Shown: in pieces, positions 2,676 through 10,064 of the stretch
How the letters are laid out: each line of letters opens with the position of its first letter
How positions within the stretch are numbered: position 1 is the stretch's first letter
Virus record (IMG/VR): IMGVR_UViG_3300004460_000060
Coordinates: 1 to 23,561 of that record
Strand: one strand, 5' to 3'
Length of the DNA: 23,561 nt
Origin: a virus
Notes under the pieces: model-generated
The model's input: only the letters and a program-made list of their open reading frames with translations
What the model was told of the DNA's origin: nothing
Database searches by the model: none
Made by a program: the position numbers and the translations under genes

Positions 2676-3353
2676 TTAAGATCCTGTTATTGTTACAAAC
2701 CCATTTGCACCTACACTACCACTGGCTTCTCGATTAGCGTTACCACCGTTACCATTGCCTGTACCGTTTTGACCACCTGCGCCACCGTTACCTCCTTGAG
2801 AAGCTGATTGACCTGTAGCACCATTAACACCATTTGGGGATCCCCCGGCACCACCAGCACCCGGAGTACCCGCAGCACCGCCACCGCCACCAGTTGCAGA
2901 TACAGTAGCAGAAGCAGCTACTACACTAGTCGTACCTCCAGCACCTCCACCATTACCACCCGCTTGAAACCCTGGGTAAAAACCTCCAGCACCACCAGTA
3001 CCTATATTAACCGTAAGTTCTTCTCCGGGGGTAACCGCTATAGTTTGAGATACTATAAAACCTCCAGAGCCACCACCGCCACCACCATGTAAGTCTCCTG
3101 TATGGACAGCTGATCCACCACCTCCACCAGCAGCGTATACACTCACAGATAGTTCAAACAAACCAGCAGGTACGGTTACTGTTTGAACGCCAACACTTCC
3201 AGAAGAAAAGTTTAAAGCTCCAGGAAACACCGTACGCCATGTACCATTGTTATTGACTTGTACTTTTTCTATATTTCTCCAAGTGCCCCCGTCATTAACA
3301 AATATTTGCAGGGCTTCTCTAAAAGTACCACTATCGTTAACTGATACAGTCAT
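2676..3353 (-). CDS. Glycine-rich tail / fibre protein (225 aa)
   Basis: The N-terminus carries three 14-residue repeats of the form VN[DN]xGT[FW]R (residues 5-12, 19-26 and 33-40). Such repeats mark attachment segments in many phage tail proteins. From about residue 70 onward the chain is dominated by Gly, Ala, Ser and Asn in runs such as GGGGSGGF and GGAGGFYPGFQAGGNGGG. It ends GANGFVTITGS, a typical C-terminus for glycine-rich fibre tips that bind the host surface. It lies 8 bases downstream of the shorter tail fibre gene, forming a fibre + glycine-rich pair that mirrors the pair at 8101-10064. It is probably an adhesin tip. No enzyme motif is present. Confidence 0.78.
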   Translation of the reverse strand: MTVSVNDSGTFREALQIFVNDGGTWRNIEKVQVNNNGTWRTVFPGALNFSSGSVGVQTVTVPAGLFELSVSVYAAGGGGGSAVHTGDLHGGGGGGSGGFIVSQTIAVTPGEELTVNIGTGGAGGFYPGFQAGGNGGGAGGTTSVVAASATVSATGGGGGAAGTPGAGGAGGSPNGVNGATGQSASQGGNGGAGGQNGTGNGNGGNANREASGSVGANGFVTITGS

Positions 3354-3361
3354 ACTAAACC

Positions 3362-4171
3362 TTAGTTAGAGTATTTATAGTGAATATCACCATCAGAACC
3401 GCCTGACGCATCGGAAGTAGATAGCGTTCGAACGCCTACAGCATTACTGCCCACAGTAACTGAATTAACTGTTGTTCCTGTTATACTACCACCAGTAATT
3501 GATACGCCGTCTGAATCTTGAGTTGCAAGCGTACCTAAGCCTAATGAATTTCTTGCTGTAGTGCCAGATTCTGAAACCCAAGTAGTGCCGTTACCCACAA
3601 TAAAATTACCATCAGACCTAGCAAGTGCAGTTATAGCATCTAGATAAACACTATGGCTTTGGACATCTGCACCAATTTCAAGACCTAAATTTGACCTCGC
3701 TGCGGTAGTAGCAGTGGCTCCTGTACCCCCACTAGCAATAGGTAATGCTGTAGTTAAAGTTAAAGAAGATAAGTGGGTGACTGCATCAACTACGTCCGTA
3801 CCGTTGTTAAACAACAACATCGTTTTACCGGCTGGTACAGCTATACCATTTTGACCTGACACTTTTACAGTACAAGCATCTGCTAATCCATTGTTTACAA
3901 CATACATTTTTTCAATAGCGGGAACAGTTAAGTTTCTCGCACCACCTGATGTGCCTGTAAGGTTTAACCTCATATTTCGAGCAGCCTGCGAAGCATTGCT
4001 GTCAGATAACGTAAGAGTAACATCACCACTTGAGAACGAAACATCAGCGCTACCAGCAATAGCTTCTTGTAATGCGGTACCTAGGTTAGTATTAGTTACT
4101 ACCCCCCAAGTATTAAGGTTCTCTCCAGTAGTCATTAACTGAATTTTTAAAGCGCTGTATGTACTAGCCAT
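3362..4171 (-). CDS. Tail fibre protein, paralogue lacking the S74 domain (269 aa)
   Basis: The first ~150 residues (MASTYSALKIQLMTTGENLN onward) align almost without gaps to the start of the 322-residue fibre encoded at 9096-10064, about 70% identical by eye. Shared blocks include RLNLTGTSGGARNL and NNGLADACTVKVSGQ. After the shared part it has fibre-like repeats such as SGGTGATA and ATQDSDGVSITGGSITG, common in phage tail fibre shafts. Unlike its paralogue it ends in HYKYSN with no chaperone domain. Its ATG lies inside the 3' end of the desaturase gene (8-base overlap, ATGGCTAG). The role is probably attachment of a receptor-binding assembly. Confidence is good for a virion fibre and uncertain for exact position. 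Confidence 0.8.
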   Translation of the reverse strand: MASTYSALKIQLMTTGENLNTWGVVTNTNLGTALQEAIAGSADVSFSSGDVTLTLSDSNASQAARNMRLNLTGTSGGARNLTVPAIEKMYVVNNGLADACTVKVSGQNGIAVPAGKTMLLFNNGTDVVDAVTHLSSLTLTTALPIASGGTGATATTAARSNLGLEIGADVQSHSVYLDAITALARSDGNFIVGNGTTWVSESGTTARNSLGLGTLATQDSDGVSITGGSITGTTVNSVTVGSNAVGVRTLSTSDASGGSDGDIHYKYSN

Positions 4172-4916
4172 TTTGTTTACCTCTAACTTTAATTATATCT
4201 ACCAAATATTTATAAAAATCAATCTCATACCATTTTACCGCTTGATTGTAGTTTGACGGATCGTTATGATGATTGTTATGGTAAGTACTTTCTAAAAAAA
4301 TTGGTATTGGTAAGTTTTTAGAAGTATCTTTAGTATTAAAATTTCTGTACCCAAACCTATGTAAAACTACATTTGTAAAGCTTGACGTATGGAATGTGTA
4401 TACAACAGCAAATGCAAAAAAATAAATCGTAACACGCGGCTCTATTATTGCACTTAGTATAATAATTGACCAGTATATCTTAAAGTAATGCTTTGCAGAC
4501 AATTTGTGCATTTTGACCTTAGAAAGCCTACGAATTGTGCCTACATCAACTTTTAAACGTTCGCCTAACCCTAACCAAAACCAAGTACTAATTCCTTTAG
4601 CTCCTGGATGAGGATCTCCATTTTTGTCAGAGTATCTATGATGCGCTACGTGATGTGCAGCCCAAGCCATAGGTGGGCCTTGCAAAGCCATAATTGCCAA
4701 TAAATTTAACACTGGCTCTAGTTTAAGGTTAAAGCAAAATGATCTGTGAGAAAGATACCTGTGTTCGTATATCCCTACCCCATAACTACCTATAAGCAAA
4801 GTACCAATAGCTGACGCCCATAACCATTGTGGCTCCCATAAAACAATCATTCCTACAATACAAATAATATGTATTGCAACTTGAGACGCTAATAATTTAT
4901 AGTGCGGACTAAACAT
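4164..4916 (-). CDS. Membrane fatty-acid (acyl) desaturase, delta-9 type
   Basis: This 250-residue protein has all three histidine boxes of the acyl-CoA/acyl-lipid desaturase family. They are HRYLSH (residues 52-57), HVAHH (89-93, followed by RYSDKNGDPH) and HNNHH (213-217). An additional His occurs in TNVVLH, about residue 189, where the family has a further di-iron ligand. Hydrophobic segments before box 1, between boxes 1 and 2 and in the middle (about 145-175) fit the usual four-helix membrane topology. The enzyme inserts a double bond in a fatty acyl chain using O2 and electrons, probably from a host ferredoxin. There is no fused electron donor. It overlaps its neighbours by 8 bases on both sides and is AT-rich. 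It is a host-derived auxiliary metabolic gene. The family is very sure; substrate and position specificity are not known. Confidence 0.93.
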   Translation of the reverse strand: MFSPHYKLLASQVAIHIICIVGMIVLWEPQWLWASAIGTLLIGSYGVGIYEHRYLSHRSFCFNLKLEPVLNLLAIMALQGPPMAWAAHHVAHHRYSDKNGDPHPGAKGISTWFWLGLGERLKVDVGTIRRLSKVKMHKLSAKHYFKIYWSIIILSAIIEPRVTIYFFAFAVVYTFHTSSFTNVVLHRFGYRNFNTKDTSKNLPIPIFLESTYHNNHHNDPSNYNQAVKWYEIDFYKYLVDIIKVRGKQNG

Positions 4917-5469
4917 ATTTACTTGGTTTTTGCTTCCATAAGTTAGAAATTATAGAGCGTCTATACCCTTTGACTACTTCAGTAACCCTATGTTGCGCAT
5001 TAGGTGTAAATACGATTAATCTGTTTGGCACAGGTTGTATACGTTCAAGTTCTCCATTACCTCTTTTTATTTCTAAGTAGCCTCCAACACAAGGTTCTGT
5101 ATGCGCATAGTATATAAACCCAGAATCAGCTGTTTTAATTTCCCCAGAATCAACAAGCCTTTGTTCTTCCTCTGAGTCTACTATCCCATCAAGGTCATTA
5201 TCTGTATGAAACCCAACTGGGCCTGCTGGGCCATCAGCGTTTAGGGGCGTAACTAGTCGCGTCCAATACTCCCATCCATTAATATTTTGTTTTATCCCAA
5301 CGACCTCATTCCAAACTAAATGGCATAAATGTTCGAATGCATTTGATAGGTTTTTGTCGTGGTCAACCCATTGAATCGGTGCTCCTGGTTTTAAATTGTC
5401 CCACAGGCTAGAACTCGTAAGGTTTTTCTTTAGGTTACTACTAGGAAGAAAGTCATCAAAAATAATCAT
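4909..5469 (-). CDS. 2OG-Fe(II) oxygenase (prolyl 4-hydroxylase-like)
   Basis: This 186-residue protein starts IIFDDFLPSS, the usual entry of compact 2-oxoglutarate/Fe(II) dioxygenases. It carries the metal triad as H88-x-D90 (GFHTDND) and H160 (NAQHRV), with the 2-oxoglutarate-binding basic residue at R170/R171 (KGYRRSI). The part between contains GGYLEIKRG and RLIVFTPN, matching the core strands of the double-stranded beta-helix. The family hydroxylates protein side chains or small molecules, consuming O2 and 2-oxoglutarate. The substrate cannot be read from sequence. The ATG overlaps the stop of the upstream double-dioxygenase gene by one base (TAATG), and its end overlaps the desaturase start by 8 bases (ATGTTTAG). 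Translation of the three genes is probably coupled. Confidence 0.85.
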   Translation of the reverse strand: MIIFDDFLPSSNLKKNLTSSSLWDNLKPGAPIQWVDHDKNLSNAFEHLCHLVWNEVVGIKQNINGWEYWTRLVTPLNADGPAGPVGFHTDNDLDGIVDSEEEQRLVDSGEIKTADSGFIYYAHTEPCVGGYLEIKRGNGELERIQPVPNRLIVFTPNAQHRVTEVVKGYRRSIISNLWKQKPSKYV

Positions 5470-6623
5470 TATTTAAACCAAGGGCCAACTAACCAAGTGA
5501 CAATACTGCGCCGTATGCCTTTTGTCACAGGCTCAACACCATGTAACATAAAACTAGGAAACGCAATTACGGTGCCTTTTTCTTGATCTGGATACGTTTT
5601 TTCCTTACCTATTTGCAAGTAAAATTTACCGCCCTCAAAATCATCATTTAAAAACGCAAGTACTGTTAATTTTCTACACTCACTTGCGTTTGGACTCATA
5701 AATGTATCCACATGACTTACATAATGTCCTTCGGTGCTATATCTTAAATACTCACTTTGATTGCTATTTGTTATACTAAACCTCCATGCTTTTTGATTCA
5801 TATTTAACCCTATACCACTTAAAGTAGCACCGATACCAACGTCATGAGATATATTTAACTTATCAACATCTCTAACATTTTTCTCAACTACACCTGCACT
5901 CTCATCATCACGTAAGCCGATCTCTGCGGGTTCTAAAGCTACTTGTTCAAATTTCTGTATCATCTGCTCACAGGCAATATCGGCTATCGCATTGCGCGCA
6001 AACCAATAAATTATTTCCTCGTTTGCCTTCGAATTTTGATGATGAGACAATGCAAGTCTTTTATCGTACTTCTGCTCTGCGCAAGGGCCATTTTGATCTA
6101 CATAGTGTAAAAATATTTGTGTTTGCCATCCGTCTTTAAGCGCTTCTCGCCAATGTGGTGCGTCGCACCCTTTATATATAACCCCATCTCCAATAGCTAT
6201 ATCGAGTTTGGTTTGATTTTTTACTCTGAATATTTCATCTACTTGGCCTTTAATGCCTAAATCTGTATCTTGGCCTGGATCAGCAATATATAAGGGCCAT
6301 ACTTCACCGTCGTGACCTAGTGTAATTGTTACGCTGTACTCACAAGCTTCTCTATCTGTGTGGCAAGCTAAGTCTTCACCCTCTAAATAGAACCGAGCAT
6401 ACGCATACGTTGGAAACAGCTTTTTACCTGTTTCTTGTTCCATCCTAGGTAAAAACTCTTCGAGCACTTGCTCAAGTACGGGGTGATGATAAACAGAAAA
6501 ACTATTTGGGCACTGTTCATCTTTTATTGCTGTATTGTTTTCAGCTGATTCTTGTAAAAACTTAGTTAGTTGCGCACAAGTATCTTTACATATTGCTTCC
6601 GTAATATATTTAAAATTATCCAT
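5469..6623 (-). CDS. Two-domain 2OG-Fe(II) oxygenase
   Basis: This 384-residue chain appears to contain two dioxygenase cores. Domain 1 (about 1-178) has ARFYLEGEDLACHTDRE with H88-x-D90. Its distal His is H157 in the stretch GCDAPHWREAL, followed by WQTQIFLHYV. The usual Arg is not obvious here and Q167/Q169 occupy the region. This form of domain occurs in marine phage proteins of unknown substrate. Domain 2 (about 260-384) is a standard prolyl-4-hydroxylase-like core with H304-x-D306 (SHVDTF), FEGGKFYL, H361 (MLHGVEPV) and R371/R372 (GIRRSIVTW). A linker of low similarity (about 190-255) separates them. Both metal triads look intact. The gene overlaps upstream and downstream genes by 8 bases and 1 base. 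The fusion is direct observation; activity and substrate are inference. Confidence 0.82.
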   Translation of the reverse strand: MDNFKYITEAICKDTCAQLTKFLQESAENNTAIKDEQCPNSFSVYHHPVLEQVLEEFLPRMEQETGKKLFPTYAYARFYLEGEDLACHTDREACEYSVTITLGHDGEVWPLYIADPGQDTDLGIKGQVDEIFRVKNQTKLDIAIGDGVIYKGCDAPHWREALKDGWQTQIFLHYVDQNGPCAEQKYDKRLALSHHQNSKANEEIIYWFARNAIADIACEQMIQKFEQVALEPAEIGLRDDESAGVVEKNVRDVDKLNISHDVGIGATLSGIGLNMNQKAWRFSITNSNQSEYLRYSTEGHYVSHVDTFMSPNASECRKLTVLAFLNDDFEGGKFYLQIGKEKTYPDQEKGTVIAFPSFMLHGVEPVTKGIRRSIVTWLVGPWFK

Positions 6624-7236
6624 AAAGTATATCTAAAATCTCCTCAATAGGTTGCATGAAAGCAAGTTGAACTGCGGTACGTGTAATTGTTTTATTATAG
6701 TTAACAAGTTCTTTAGCTCTAAATTTACTATTTTTCATATTTAATTCGAAAGCTGCATTTGGCAAAACTGAATGTGCTTTTGCGGTGTTTAACATCCAAA
6801 CGTCTCCAGGTTTTGCTATAAACCTATATTTAACTTCGAGATTATCAGCCCTGACGTTATAGTAAGTATTACCATTATCAATAGTAAGTCTATCATCTTT
6901 AATGTACTCGTTACCATCCCAAAAACTAGTAACTTCTTGATTTGGGTTAAAGTAAAAATTAATTATAGTTTTTTCATTAGTGTGAGCGTGAGGCGTTAAT
7001 AAACTAATTTTTGTTAACGCGGACTTGTACAGGTGTGGTTTTAGTTTTGGAAATAGATTAATAAATTGATCTGATTCATCAAGACGCCACCTAACAATAC
7101 TAGGGGACTTAGATATTCTTAATTTACCGTAAGATTCAATTTGCGGTCTATCATTAATACTTTTTATTTCAGGACATTTAACATCAAGTTTTTTTGCGTA
7201 AATAATATCCGAATCATTAAATGAATTTAATTCCAT
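6616..7236 (-). CDS. Putative double-stranded beta-helix hydroxylase-like protein (206 aa)
   Basis: The protein shows a cupin/dioxygenase-like order of elements. LLTPHAHTNEKTII (H83, H85) is followed by a variable insert, then FIAKPGDVWMLNTAKAHSV (H155) and RTAVQLAF (R186). The spacing and the GDVWMLN strand recall aspartyl/asparaginyl beta-hydroxylase-like folds that bind Fe(II) and 2-oxoglutarate. However, the first metal motif reads HAH, not HxD, so catalysis may be altered or lost. The C-terminus (PIEEILDILYG) is helical. It is the most AT-rich gene in the window. It overlaps the upstream 165-residue gene by 20 bases and the downstream gene by 8. The fold assignment is moderate; function is unknown. 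Confidence 0.6.
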   Translation of the reverse strand: MELNSFNDSDIIYAKKLDVKCPEIKSINDRPQIESYGKLRISKSPSIVRWRLDESDQFINLFPKLKPHLYKSALTKISLLTPHAHTNEKTIINFYFNPNQEVTSFWDGNEYIKDDRLTIDNGNTYYNVRADNLEVKYRFIAKPGDVWMLNTAKAHSVLPNAAFELNMKNSKFRAKELVNYNKTITRTAVQLAFMQPIEEILDILYG

Positions 7237-7714
7237 AACAATCAGTATGTGCGTTAAAAGTTTGATTGGTTGAAACTATTTTTATTTGGGTAGGGTTTGT
7301 AATAGTTTTATCTCCTACTACTAATGTACCAGTACAAAAAAACAATTTTGTATCTTGTGGTAGATTTTCAGTCTCTCCCGCGGCAAGGTACCATTTTTCA
7401 CATGTAGGTAGGTAGTTATTATTTGCTTCTTTAGGGATGCACCACCAAATAGGATTATCTACCGCCGTATGAGTGCATACCCCATGTCCGCCAATATTTT
7501 CTACCATATCTGCTGGAGTTAACCAATCACCAACTTTATAGTCCGGCAACGTTGTTCCGTCAGAAAATGTATTGTTAATTACGCTACCCTGCGAAAGAAG
7601 GTTATACCACTCTCTATTTTTAGGATACTCATATGAATACGTTGTTACACCCTCGTAGGTATTTTGAAGAATAACCCACCCAAATGCTCTATAAGGTTTT
7701 TGTTTTACATCCAT
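7217..7714 (-). CDS. Hypothetical protein in the accessory cassette (165 aa)
   Basis: No family is recognised with confidence. The sequence is rich in aromatic residues and Cys (C80, C92, C104 and others, e.g. GGHGVCTHTA, WWCIP, PTCEKWYLAAG). Its C-terminal half looks all-beta (KLFFCTGTLVVGDKTI, TQIKIVS). A similar beta-rich pattern occurs in hypothetical proteins beside tail genes in marine phages. There is no signal peptide or membrane segment. It shares 20 bases with the start of the 206-residue gene, so the two are translationally coupled, and begins 3 bases after the end of the 123-residue gene. It may be a small virion or host-modifying protein. Confidence 0.6.
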   Translation of the reverse strand: MDVKQKPYRAFGWVILQNTYEGVTTYSYEYPKNREWYNLLSQGSVINNTFSDGTTLPDYKVGDWLTPADMVENIGGHGVCTHTAVDNPIWWCIPKEANNNYLPTCEKWYLAAGETENLPQDTKLFFCTGTLVVGDKTITNPTQIKIVSTNQTFNAHTDCYGIKFI

Positions 7715-7716
7715 GT

Positions 7717-8088
7717 TTATACCTCCTCAGAAGGAGCATCTTCTGGGGTACTCGTTTCTACCACTCCAGAAGTATCTTCTACTAAATCACTACTATTGTA
7801 AGTATGGACAGTATCTGAAACTAAACTTTTATACATATCTAGTTTAGCGGTGTCCGCATTTAAGTCTTCATTGAGTTTCTGTTGATCAGCAACGTAGATT
7901 CCAGCTTTCGCTAATGCTGTTCGCAATTGTTCTTCTGTAGTTGCTTCTGGAAACATTGTATGCGGTTGATACGCTAGCTCAAAATATGCTTCAGGATCTT
8001 CGTTTGCTGTTTCATCTGAAGCGTATTTTACAAGAAGGGATTTAGATTCTTCCTCCCAACCTACAATTTTCATTTTTAAAGTGTTCAT
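7717..8088 (-). CDS. Conserved hypothetical, tail-associated (123 aa)
   Basis: The protein begins with a beta-type segment (KMKIVGWEEESKSLLVKYAS) that I associate with small proteins encoded after tail fibre genes in marine phages. A helical middle part follows (TTEEQLRTALAKAGIYVADQ) and then an acidic, low-complexity C-terminus rich in Ser, Thr, Glu and Asp. No catalytic motif or membrane segment is visible. It lies 13 bases downstream of the glycine-rich 331-residue protein and just before the accessory oxygenase genes. A role in fibre assembly or in the virion is possible, but it rests on position only. Confidence 0.6.
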   Translation of the reverse strand: MNTLKMKIVGWEEESKSLLVKYASDETANEDPEAYFELAYQPHTMFPEATTEEQLRTALAKAGIYVADQQKLNEDLNADTAKLDMYKSLVSDTVHTYNSSDLVEDTSGVVETSTPEDAPSEEV

Positions 8089-8100
8089 AATTTCCTCTGT

Positions 8101-9096
8101 TTAAGATACGCCACCTTGACGTGTACCTGTAGTTGACCAAGTAATTAAAGAGTTTCCAACTGCATAATTTCCTGCGCTTCCCCCACCCGCCGCTATTGAA
8201 GAGCTCGGATTTGTTGGGCTTGAGGAAGATCCAGCAGCCCCTCGACCACCACCAGGGCCACCGTTACCGGCACTAGCTGTAAAAAATCCTTTAGGACTTC
8301 TACTAGGCCCAGTTTGACCGGAGCCTCCACCACCACCGCCTGTAGAACTTCCAGCACCACCGTTACCGCCACCAGCGCTACCACCAGAGCCACCAGAGTA
8401 TCCTGCGCCACCGCCACCGCCACCACCATTTAGAAAGCGACTAGCAAATGATGGGGCCTTGGGTGAGCCAGCAGGCGCTTGGCGTATTATAGCGGAACCT
8501 CCACCGCCACCGCCACCGCCACCAGCAAAAACACCATTATTAGCAATTGTAGTTGGTCTATTTACATACAAAGCGCTTCCGCCAGGATTACCGCCACCCC
8601 CTTGTCTTCGAGGGCTTGGGACATAGAAAGGGCTAACGGGGCCAGTAGTAGGGAGCGAGAGAGCACTTCCACCGTTACCGCCACGACCTTGAACTACTCC
8701 ATTGTTAATAATGGTTACTGTGTCTCCAGGATTAAAACCACTAGGAACTAACATTGCGTAAGTATTAGTAGCTGATGATCCTACTAACACCCCCGGATTA
8801 ATTGTAAGCGTAAGGTCAGTTGCCCCTGCTGAATACCCTGGGTTAGCAGAAGCGTTACTAAATACATCATAATTTTGCACACTACTAGCAATTGTAAGCG
8901 CTAACGCAGTACGATTTGCAGCGTTATAAAAATTCCCAATAGCAATAGCACCTGACTCAGGTATATTAGAGTTTCCAGCTGCGTCAGGGACTAAACCACC
9001 ACCTCTATAAAAATCACTCATAGAGTTAGGTTGTGAGTCACTAAACTCAGTAGCAATTTCAGATATGGCTAGCTGGCCTGAAGCGGGTAATGCCAT
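8101..9096 (-). CDS. Glycine-rich tail protein (331 aa)
   Basis: The N-terminal part contains LPASGQLAISEIATEF, SMSDFYRGGG and IPESGAIAIGNFYNA, a motif set I recognise from phage tail structural proteins. A central beta region (about 65-135, with NTYAMLVPSGFNPGDTVTII) follows. From about residue 135 to 310 there are long Gly/Ser tracts, including a run of nine Gly. The tracts are encoded by CCACCG-type repeats on the plus strand (8403-8428 and 8501-8524). Such tails often form the adhesin tip. It overlaps the stop of the S74-domain fibre gene by one base and pairs with it in the same order as the shorter copy at 2676-4171. Confidence 0.8.
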   Translation of the reverse strand: MALPASGQLAISEIATEFSDSQPNSMSDFYRGGGLVPDAAGNSNIPESGAIAIGNFYNAANRTALALTIASSVQNYDVFSNASANPGYSAGATDLTLTINPGVLVGSSATNTYAMLVPSGFNPGDTVTIINNGVVQGRGGNGGSALSLPTTGPVSPFYVPSPRRQGGGGNPGGSALYVNRPTTIANNGVFAGGGGGGGGGSAIIRQAPAGSPKAPSFASRFLNGGGGGGGAGYSGGSGGSAGGGNGGAGSSTGGGGGGSGQTGPSRSPKGFFTASAGNGGPGGGRGAAGSSSSPTNPSSSIAAGGGSAGNYAVGNSLITWSTTGTRQGGVS

Positions 9097-10064
9097 TATT
9101 TATCTCCTTTAAGCCTCTCGACTTCATCTGAAAGTTCTTTAACAGCTTCAATTAGTACCGCTACAAGTCTTTCGTATTTAACGGCTTTGTACCCTCCAGA
9201 GTTCTCAGCAACAATTTCTGGAAATACTTTTTCTACTTCTTGCGCAATAACACCAATATCTTGTTTACGTACAAATGTACCGTCTTCACCACCCTTAGAC
9301 TCAATGTAAGCCTCTGTCCAATCGTATCGAACTCCGTTGAGTTGTTTTACTATATCAACTGCGTTATCAATATTAGTGATGTTTTCTTTTAGTCTTTGGT
9401 CTGATGAGTAAAAAGCAGTTACATCGTTGGTTGCTCGTATCTCACCAGTTGTACCTGATGCTGCTGTACCTACTCCAAAAGAATCAAACTGTACATCACT
9501 TGTTGTAGTAAGTGCTTGGTTAATTGCTGCTAGGTTAGTATTGAACGCCTGTACGTCAGAGCCAATAGCAACACCCAATGCTGTTCTTGCGGCAGACGCA
9601 GTACTTGATCCGGTACCACCATCAGCAATAGCGAGATCCGTAGTCAGCGTCAGCGAAGCTAAATGAGTCATAGCATTAACAACGTCTGCACTATTGTTAT
9701 ACAAGAACATTGTTTTACCAGCGGGTACTGCTACACCTGTCTGACCAGATACTTTAACGGTGCAAGCGTCAGCTAAACCATTATTAATTATGTACAGTTT
9801 TTCTATACCAGGAACAATTAAATTACGTGCTCCCCCCGATGTACCTGTTAGATTTAGTCTTAAATTACGTGCTGGTTGTGTAGCGTTATCGTCGGTTAAG
9901 CTAAGCGTTACATCTGCGCTGGAAAAAGACACATCCGCTGAACCCACTATGGATTCTTCAAGCGCGGTGCCTAAGTTTACGTTAGTTACATTACCCCAAG
10001 CCCCGGCGTTGTCACCAGTTCCCATCAGTTGTAACTTAAGATTTGATGAATATGTTGATGCCAT
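9096..10064 (-). CDS. Tail fibre with C-terminal S74 intramolecular chaperone domain
   Basis: The first ~150 residues are the fibre-attachment domain shared with the 269-residue paralogue at 3362-4171. Residues about 150-215 form a shaft with GGTGSSTASAARTALG-type repeats. From residue 218 there is a peptidase S74 (endosialidase-type) chaperone: YSSDQRLKENI with the Ser-Asp self-cleavage pair at S221-D222, then DIGVIAQEVEKVFPEIV, YERLVAVLIEAVKEL and a terminal coiled coil. In this family the domain helps trimerise the fibre and then cuts itself off. The gene starts 9 bases downstream of the beta-repeat protein. Assignment as a receptor-binding or side fibre is well supported; the receptor is unknown. 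Confidence 0.9.
   Translation of the reverse strand: MASTYSSNLKLQLMGTGDNAGAWGNVTNVNLGTALEESIVGSADVSFSSADVTLSLTDDNATQPARNLRLNLTGTSGGARNLIVPGIEKLYIINNGLADACTVKVSGQTGVAVPAGKTMFLYNNSADVVNAMTHLASLTLTTDLAIADGGTGSSTASAARTALGVAIGSDVQAFNTNLAAINQALTTTSDVQFDSFGVGTAASGTTGEIRATNDVTAFYSSDQRLKENITNIDNAVDIVKQLNGVRYDWTEAYIESKGGEDGTFVRKQDIGVIAQEVEKVFPEIVAENSGGYKAVKYERLVAVLIEAVKELSDEVERLKGDK

Follow-up and report, generated by a model that had tools for sequence, protein, structure and literature searches.

A recurrent oxygenase-desaturase gene row behind a glycine-rich tail adhesin in a virus genome, with a possible role in adhesin proline hydroxylation

The window analysed here, the whole 23,561-nucleotide stretch of IMG/VR record IMGVR_UViG_3300004460_000060, carries a row of genes in the order adhesin, 123-aa protein, 165-aa protein, DSBH-fold protein, double oxygenase (ox2), single oxygenase (ox1) and membrane fatty-acid desaturase (Table 1). 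The first-pass annotation had reported the last four as an overlapping cassette in a tail-fibre setting, so the row is larger than was described. The layout was found as given: the junctions from the DSBH protein gene to the desaturase gene overlap by 8, 1 and 8 bases in turn, the 165-aa gene overlaps the DSBH protein gene by 20 bases, and the desaturase gene runs 8 bases into the adjoining fibre gene (3362-4171). This fibre gene and that at 9096-10064 encode products with 71% identity over 181 aa. With a DNA identity of only ~70% over 389 bases, the flanking duplication was rejected as a present-day recombination repeat.

Table 1. Features of the gene row and its borders (positions within the window)
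Feature	Position	Strand	Basis or remark
gp38-like Gly-rich tail adhesin (331 aa)	8101..9096	-	PF05268 GP38; first gene of the row, proposed substrate
123-aa protein, slot between adhesin and enzymes	7717..8088	-	homologues in same slot
165-aa protein	7217..7714	-	20-base overlap with DSBH protein gene
DSBH-fold protein (206 aa)	6616..7236	-	HxH...H motif
ox2, double DSBH oxygenase (384 aa)	5469..6623	-	motifs, AF2 model
ox2 N-half, phrog_2954, labelled 'ferrochelatase'	6039..6623	-	HxD...H conserved
ox2 C-half, phrog_61/PF13640 oxygenase, prolyl-hydroxylase-like	5469..6038	-	Pfam, profile match
ox1, single 2OG-Fe(II) oxygenase (186 aa), optional slot	4909..5469	-	PF13640, motif
Membrane fatty-acid desaturase (250 aa), optional, final slot	4164..4916	-	PF00487, His boxes
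Tail-fibre gene (269 aa), borders the row	3362..4171	-	N-terminal part common to fibre gene 9096-10064
Second Gly-rich protein, beyond the row	2676..3353	-	PF21722, 31.3 bits (cut-off 24.3)

The adhesin, which heads the row in every contig that includes the upstream side, was assigned to the gp38 family by a score of 32.7 bits to PF05268 (cut-off 25) and an alignment of Gly runs; 31 Gly fall within its richest 60 residues. Like the polyglycine-sandwich adhesin gp38 of phage S16 (6F45; PMC6851490), it appears to combine long Gly runs with variable loops between them; unlike S16 gp38, it has Pro-rich loops, another N-terminal part and enzyme genes behind it. Neither of the two small proteins gave a match of weight in Pfam, PHROG or NCBIfam, and the 165-aa protein had none among cultured phages. 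Their homologues occupy the same slots in other contigs, at 34-79% identity for the 123-aa protein and 27-77% for the 165-aa protein.

Pfam families and conserved metal-site motifs bore out the identities proposed for the four enzyme-type genes, with one exception in detail. The desaturase is a membrane enzyme of the PF00487/SCD type (44.2 bits, cut-off 29.7, E = 2.6e-11; profile match to acyl-CoA desaturase 1, SCD1, 4ymk, at 1.2e-33), in which eight of the nine metal-binding His (H52, 57, 89, 92, 93, 186, 213, 216 and 217) are invariant and the ninth is conserved in at least 90% of relatives; it had no match at 1e-5 among cultured phages. The ox1 protein scores 30.9 bits to PF13640 (cut-off 27, E = 5.3e-7), carries the 2OG-Fe(II) oxygenase residues H88/D90/H160/R170, invariant in 8 sequences, and matches the C-half of ox2 with an hhalign probability of 95%. 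The exception is the DSBH protein, whose H83, H85, H155 and R186 are invariant in 10 relatives and form an HxH...H rather than an HxD/E...H motif, so that the two-His-one-carboxylate triad of 2OG-Fe(II) oxygenases is absent. It had no match in Pfam, PHROG or NCBIfam nor among cultured phages, and its AF2 model (pLDDT 82) matched ribosomal oxygenases and cupins only weakly in Foldseek (TM ~0.4). Against PDB sequences, both it and ox1 yielded chance-level matches only. As 2OG-Fe(II) oxygenases, ox1 and the ox2 C-half are confirmed, but a count of three 2OG enzymes is too strong, because the DSBH protein has a three-His motif and lacks a 2OG family match.

The C-half of ox2 scores 54.8 bits to PF13640 (cut-off 27, E = 2e-14), keeps H304/D306/H361/R371 in the HxD...HX9R arrangement of 2OG-Fe(II) oxygenases, invariant in 40 sequences, and matches the profiles of prolyl 4-hydroxylases 3itq/5hv0 at 3e-8. 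The N-half has no Pfam match; H88/D90/H157 are invariant in 40 sequences, and since no invariant Arg/Lys stands ~ten residues past H157, the usual position of the Arg, its co-substrate is unsure. The two halves gave neither a sequence match nor a significant hhalign match to each other, so an internal duplication was rejected at the sequence level, and the evidence for two domains comes from the model and the motifs. The AF2 model (pLDDT 89.5, pTM 0.57) comprises two beta-barrel domains, whose packing is uncertain, and its best PDB fold matches are Tpa1 and OGFOD1, with prolyl hydroxylases next. Like these double-DSBH ribosomal prolyl hydroxylases, ox2 is modelled with two tandem DSBH domains; unlike them, it keeps HxD...H in both halves, and sequence identity to them is ~12%. 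The protein resembles protein prolyl hydroxylases, and prolyl hydroxylation is predicted from this similarity and from the proline correlation described below.

Three further viral contigs carry all four genes in the same order, so the outcome that the first-pass annotation named as refuting, presence only separately in related phages, did not occur; as the order recurs, the arrangement is more than chance. Sub-sets of the row preserve the order in three or more phage backbones, including a T4-like one, and overlaps too are kept in several backbones. Individual contigs vary, with the desaturase present without ox1, ox1 without the desaturase, or ox2 alone, and relative to another locus (L107) the desaturase is 82% identical and the DSBH protein 38%. 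The genes of the cassette are exchanged independently between unrelated phages; the cassette is horizontally mobile, with interchangeable enzyme slots and probable translational coupling. In 20 of 23 non-redundant cases ox2 lies no more than four genes from a Gly-rich protein, compared with 3/84 for non-cassette desaturases and 13/1423 for background ORFs.

The adhesins linked to ox2 differ from other adhesins in their proline content. The sample comprised the matches listed by the scan and is not exhaustive. Among these listed matches, proline makes up 10.6% of the non-Gly residues of the Gly-rich region in ox2-linked adhesins vs 4.2% in the others (2.5-fold), and it is the most shifted of 19 residues (AUC 0.95, P 1.4e-7). 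When a proline-masked tree is used and GC is taken as a covariate, the excess among the listed matches is +5.5 points (P 2.4e-4), the tree holding only about five independent ox2 gains or losses. The excess also holds in the sub-sample of listed matches gathered without using ox2 (5 vs 31, P 0.004). Listed adhesins beside a desaturase only are low in proline (1.4-4.3%), and two adhesins near a lone gene resembling the ox2 C-half (L281 and L287) have little. In the listed matches the excess extends beyond the Gly-rich part (8.1% vs 4.1% in the stretch before it), and other proteins of ox2 loci are slightly proline-richer too (4.5% vs 3.8%). A literature search found no report of such a correlation for phrog_61/PF13640 phage oxygenases. 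A 'PK' loop motif that tracked the DSBH protein (11/14 vs 3/39 of the listed matches) was not retained, since it occurs only in a single adhesin clade and is missing from three loci (L289, L299 and L310).

We tentatively favour, at a little under an even chance, a reading of the row as a mobile tail-adhesin cassette in which ox2, possibly together with ox1 and the DSBH protein, would hydroxylate proline of the adjoining adhesin. The modified sites would lie within or between the polyglycine strands and the receptor-binding loops, and hydroxylation may alter the shape, stability or binding of these strands or loops. The desaturase would be separate cargo, desaturating host acyl chains during infection via host electron carriers; it would share operon and timing with the oxygenases, not a pathway. 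Two parts of this picture were already known, each by itself: phage desaturases, and the presence of Fe(II) oxygenases in host-recognition islands. In the metaviromic islands of marine phages, the genes most often identifiable include gp38 adhesins and Fe(II) oxygenases, both of which occur here, and they are listed under host recognition; unlike here, the accessible part of that report proposes no cassette order, desaturase or substrate (PMC3909814). The ox2 C-half is a member of the phrog_61/PF13640 marine-phage 2OG-Fe(II) oxygenases, to which ox1 is related and whose prolyl-hydroxylase likeness (EGLN3) has been published (PMC12774648), but here it forms one protein with a second domain and keeps a set place behind a Gly-rich adhesin. 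More tentatively still, marine phages may hydroxylate prolines of their own polyglycine-type receptor-binding adhesins by means of a dedicated double oxygenase that is transferred along with the adhesin, one half of the enzyme being at present misannotated as ferrochelatase. Few accessory genes are commoner in marine phages than 2OG oxygenases, which are for the most part taken as host-metabolism genes with no assigned substrate. If the adhesin is the phage's own substrate, many of them would be recast as host-recognition genes, and the chemistry of host recognition would extend beyond the 20 genetic amino acids, a prediction open to direct test in the virions of cultured pelagiphages and cyanophages.

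Tail-fibre regions collect unrelated cargo anyway, which counts against adhesin hydroxylation. The enzymes might act on unrelated host targets and sit in an insertion hot spot, their link to the adhesin being incidental to frequent exchange. The combinatorial cargo agrees with this, as do the allele identities to L107, which shuffle gene by gene, desaturases behind such adhesins without oxygenases at L136, L139 and L273, and the hypervariability of marine-phage tail-fibre islands (PMC3909814). Random insertion would not, however, lead one to expect a fixed order, overlaps preserved between backbones, the 20/23 linkage or the proline correlation, and we consider it less likely than adhesin hydroxylation. 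An improbable alternative is that the desaturase travels with adhesins because it changes acyl chains in the outer membrane of an infected cell and so weakens binding by phages with related adhesins, whether progeny or rivals. Desaturases do lie near adhesins resembling the 331-aa protein in several phage contexts, including some that lack oxygenases, but only 5/88 viral desaturases are near Gly-rich proteins, and outer-membrane or lipid A substrates are purely hypothetical.

The first-pass annotation had suggested that oxygenases and desaturase could share one pathway, for example acting on host membrane lipids or virion proteins; in the lipid form of this model, host membranes would be modified by desaturation plus hydroxylation. 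The overlapping genes, the common O2/iron chemistry and the four-gene contigs speak for such a pathway, as does the cultured pelagimyophage Mosig, where a hydroxylase-type gene (Asp_Arg_Hydrox) stands beside a desaturase near tail-fibre genes. Mosig is also a precedent for the desaturase coupling that had been regarded as undescribed; that single 2OG oxygenases are common in marine phages is indeed known. Independent sorting of the genes leaves the pathway unsupported: desaturase and ox1 each occur where the other is missing, most ox2 relatives have no desaturase close by, and the majority of viral desaturases are without the neighbours found in this row. The likeness of ox2 is to protein prolyl hydroxylases, and the adhesin proline signal tracks the oxygenases, not the desaturase, which weakens the claim further and leaves it very improbable. 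Fatty-acid desaturases of cyanophages were reportedly described by Roitman in 2018. Viral desaturases from sea ice and cryopeg (PMC7300359) are, like the one here, PF00487 proteins resembling acyl-CoA desaturases with complete His boxes; unlike them, the present one is tied to a tail-adhesin cassette.

That the ox2 N-half acts as a ferrochelatase alongside an iron oxygenase, as the PHROGs label of its family (phrog_2954, 2.8e-49, named 'ferrochelatase' in phage annotations) and two papers (PMC9599517, PMC11561400) would have it, has a negligible chance: ox2 and three annotated 'ferrochelatases' had no ferrochelatase match at E <=1 in Pfam or NCBIfam, HxD...H and HWR are invariant, and the modelled beta-barrel domains match double-DSBH enzymes, so the identity was rejected. 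On the same grounds, the pairing published as 'ferrochelatase + oxygenase' probably joins one oxygenase to another. If so, claims of viral haem/iron partner genes, including their seasonal enrichment, need revising. Such partner genes were described in HTVC023P-type pelagiphages (PMC9599517) and in seasonal viruses (PMC11561400), as separate genes, whereas they are fused as ox2 here; these partner genes have the same two domains as ox2 and in HTVC023P adjoin Gly-rich proteins.

The four genes that the first-pass annotation had described as an overlapping oxygenase-desaturase operon were found at exactly the positions claimed, all on the minus strand, and the junctions were borne out as well (overlaps of 8, 1 and 8 bases between the four, plus 20 at the 165-aa gene and 8 at the fibre gene). 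The row extends beyond these four genes (Table). The desaturase and both 2OG oxygenases, the double ox2 and the single ox1, scored above the Pfam cut-offs; neither the DSBH protein nor ox2's N-terminal half had a match in Pfam. The His motifs of the row enzymes are kept across relatives. The claim of three 2OG/DSBH-type genes holds for the two oxygenases that pass Pfam; the DSBH protein carries an HxH...H motif and resembles ribosomal oxygenases and cupins weakly in fold (TM ~0.4), so that the '2OG' assignment is unproven for it. ox1 is related to the C-terminal half of ox2 (hhalign 95%). The fibre genes flanking the row have a common duplicated N-terminal part (71% protein and ~70% DNA identity). 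The phage genome to which the window belongs has a portal sharing ~42% identity with its counterparts in the Pelagibacter phages HTVC023P and HTVC027P, and the same virus was found on a 44-kb IMG/VR contig with 100% identical row proteins, a terminase and a DNA polymerase.

Table. Genes of the row in order of transcription, and loci of other phages
Locus	Positions	Feature
Window	9096-10064	322-aa fibre protein with S74 domain
Window	8101-9096	331-aa Gly-rich adhesin, gp38 match
Window		123-aa protein, then 165-aa protein, function unassigned
Window	6616-7236	DSBH protein, 206 aa
Window	5469-6623	ox2 (N-half 6039-6623, C-half 5469-6038)
Window	4909-5469	ox1
Window	4164-4916	Desaturase, PF00487
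Window	3362-4171	Another fibre gene
Window		Second Gly-rich protein
L105 (HTVC023P)	36056-51894	Gly-rich proteins and split ox2-like genes
L118 (T4-like)	3776-7433	Desaturase array
L145 (viral contig)	2488 onward	Synthase-desaturase cluster
L268 (Mosig)	53765-66247	Hydroxylase-desaturase pair

Seven scans of IMG/VR took the four proteins, or alignments built from them, as queries, and one took the adhesin. The order is kept: all four genes lie together in the viral contigs L107, L021/L109 and L020/L123. The desaturase is present without ox1 in L108, L110, L111, L022, L034 and others, and ox1 without the desaturase in L104, L035, L103 and L036; in L027-L030 the adhesin and the 123-aa gene are followed by ox2 alone, and in L102 the positions of desaturase and ox1 are exchanged. 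Among the row relatives, L299 and L310 have ox2 split into separate genes with extra 179-189-aa genes between, and L310 has two genes for the DSBH protein. Among the desaturases found, those with 52% identity or more to the window's all lie in the row wherever the upstream side is covered; the next-closest, 38% identical, lie outside it. Short gene overlaps were seen again across phage backbones. The row occurs in the window's backbone, in a second one whose phrog_3287 and phrog_2941 structural proteins bear only remote likeness to the window's, and in that of the T4-like L108 (head closure, tail sheath stabiliser and terminase). Between the window and L107 the desaturases are 82% identical and the DSBH proteins 38%; L100, with the second backbone, encodes a DSBH protein that shares 88% identity with the window's. 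The order of slots is kept while alleles are swapped between phages, and individual row genes, to judge from these identities, have separate histories.

The C-terminal half of ox2 matches phrog_61, whose likeness to human EGLN3 was already noted (PMC12774648), and PF13640, and its profile matches prolyl 4-hydroxylases of known structure. The N-terminal half matches phrog_2954, labelled ferrochelatase, and belongs to the same family as the 'ferrochelatases' of HTVC023P, HTVC033P and S-CAM8. These three proteins had no ferrochelatase match at E <=1 in Pfam and NCBIfam, and share with the ox2 N-half an invariant H-x-D-R...H-W-R. An AF2 model of ox2 (40 sequences, pLDDT 89.5) shows strands arranged as in two beta-barrels, with both HxD...H motifs in equivalent places; the domain packing is uncertain because of a pTM of 0.57, and the useful TM-scores are those of single domains. 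The best PDB fold matches include the known two-DSBH prolyl hydroxylases Tpa1 and OGFOD1, whose fold the model resembles, followed by single prolyl hydroxylases and double cupins. Where 2OG enzymes usually have an arginine, the N-half has none, and a sequence match between the two halves was not detectable. Given the missing database matches, the motif and the beta-barrel model, we concluded that phrog_2954 is very probably mislabelled as ferrochelatase and that the N-half is a predicted DSBH domain, which may be catalytic. A hypothetical protein 'with ferrochetalase domain' had appeared in an early comparison of cyanophages (PMC3037559), and functional inferences of Wittmers et al. (PMC9599517) and of a Western English Channel study (PMC11561400) rest on this label. 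In HTVC023P, four tandem Gly-rich proteins (443-491 aa) lie directly upstream of the split ox2-like genes; Pro makes up 11-16% of their non-Gly residues, among the highest seen.

After collapsing at 80% identity, 20 of 23 ox2 genes had a Gly-rich protein (20 or more Gly within 60 residues) at most four genes away, compared with 5/88 desaturases (3/84 outside the row) and a background of 13/1423 ORFs. Were the adhesin the target of the oxygenase, the residue that is modified might be overrepresented in it. Adhesins were sampled with patterns and an adhesin profile, ox2 not being used, among the matches listed, and the row adhesins were added. Across all 19 non-Gly residues of the Gly-rich region, Pro showed the strongest shift, with 10.6% near ox2 (n=18) versus 4.2% (n=35; AUC 0.95, P 1.4e-7). 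With GC as a covariate, a tree of proline-masked N-termini gave an effect of +5.5 points (P 2.4e-4), and under full Brownian correlation P was 7e-4. The adhesins sampled without ox2, taken alone among the matches listed, gave P 0.004, or 4e-4 with any row gene as label. Adhesins adjoining a desaturase only have 1.4-4.3% Pro, and that of L297, a locus without oxygenase inside the ox2 clade, has 3.3%. Against the correlation count the few independent ox2 events (five label changes by parsimony on the adhesin tree) and the Pro content raised also in the preceding part of ox2-linked adhesins and, slightly, in other proteins of ox2 loci. Since the statistic was picked after the sequences were viewed, the test can suggest a link but not confirm it.

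Host-recognition islands of marine phages had already been reported to count Fe(II) oxygenases and gp38 adhesins among their commonest genes (PMC3909814); in the open-access literature searched, we found no earlier account of hydroxylated adhesins, the proline correlation or the cassette together with a desaturase. The gp38 of S16 forms a polyglycine-II lattice whose helices resemble the polyproline-II helices of collagen, and its hypervariable loops relate to host range (PMC6851490). We propose that ox2 may hydroxylate adhesin prolines, much as collagen prolyl hydroxylases act on their substrates, which would change how rigid the loops are or how the receptor is contacted; these residues, or ones next to them, might also be the targets of ox1 and the DSBH protein.

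The desaturase is a membrane enzyme, so its action on the adhesin is implausible; most likely it modifies host acyl chains, by analogy with the proposal for other viral desaturases (PMC7300359). It is acyl-CoA-desaturase-like, with nine of nine His positions present. Its relatives are plentiful in viruses (at least 553) and fewer in genomes of species (65 loci, the closest 34% identical), a comparison that is indicative only because the scan patterns differed. In L136, L139 and L273 desaturases lie close behind an adhesin like the window's, without oxygenases: desaturases arrived at adhesin loci more than once. In the T4-like L112, L113 and L115-L122, between three and five diverged PF00487 desaturase genes stand in tandem, flanked by a UvsW-type helicase and late sigma factor/SbcD-type genes. 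In L145, five desaturase genes come immediately after a beta-ketoacyl synthase gene and PF13759-type oxygenases lie upstream, which looks like a phage-encoded lipid-synthesis cluster. In the cultured pelagimyophage Mosig, an Asp_Arg_Hydrox gene lies directly 5' of an FA_desaturase gene near the tail fibres, accompanied by aminotransferase, FMN reductase and peroxiredoxin genes.
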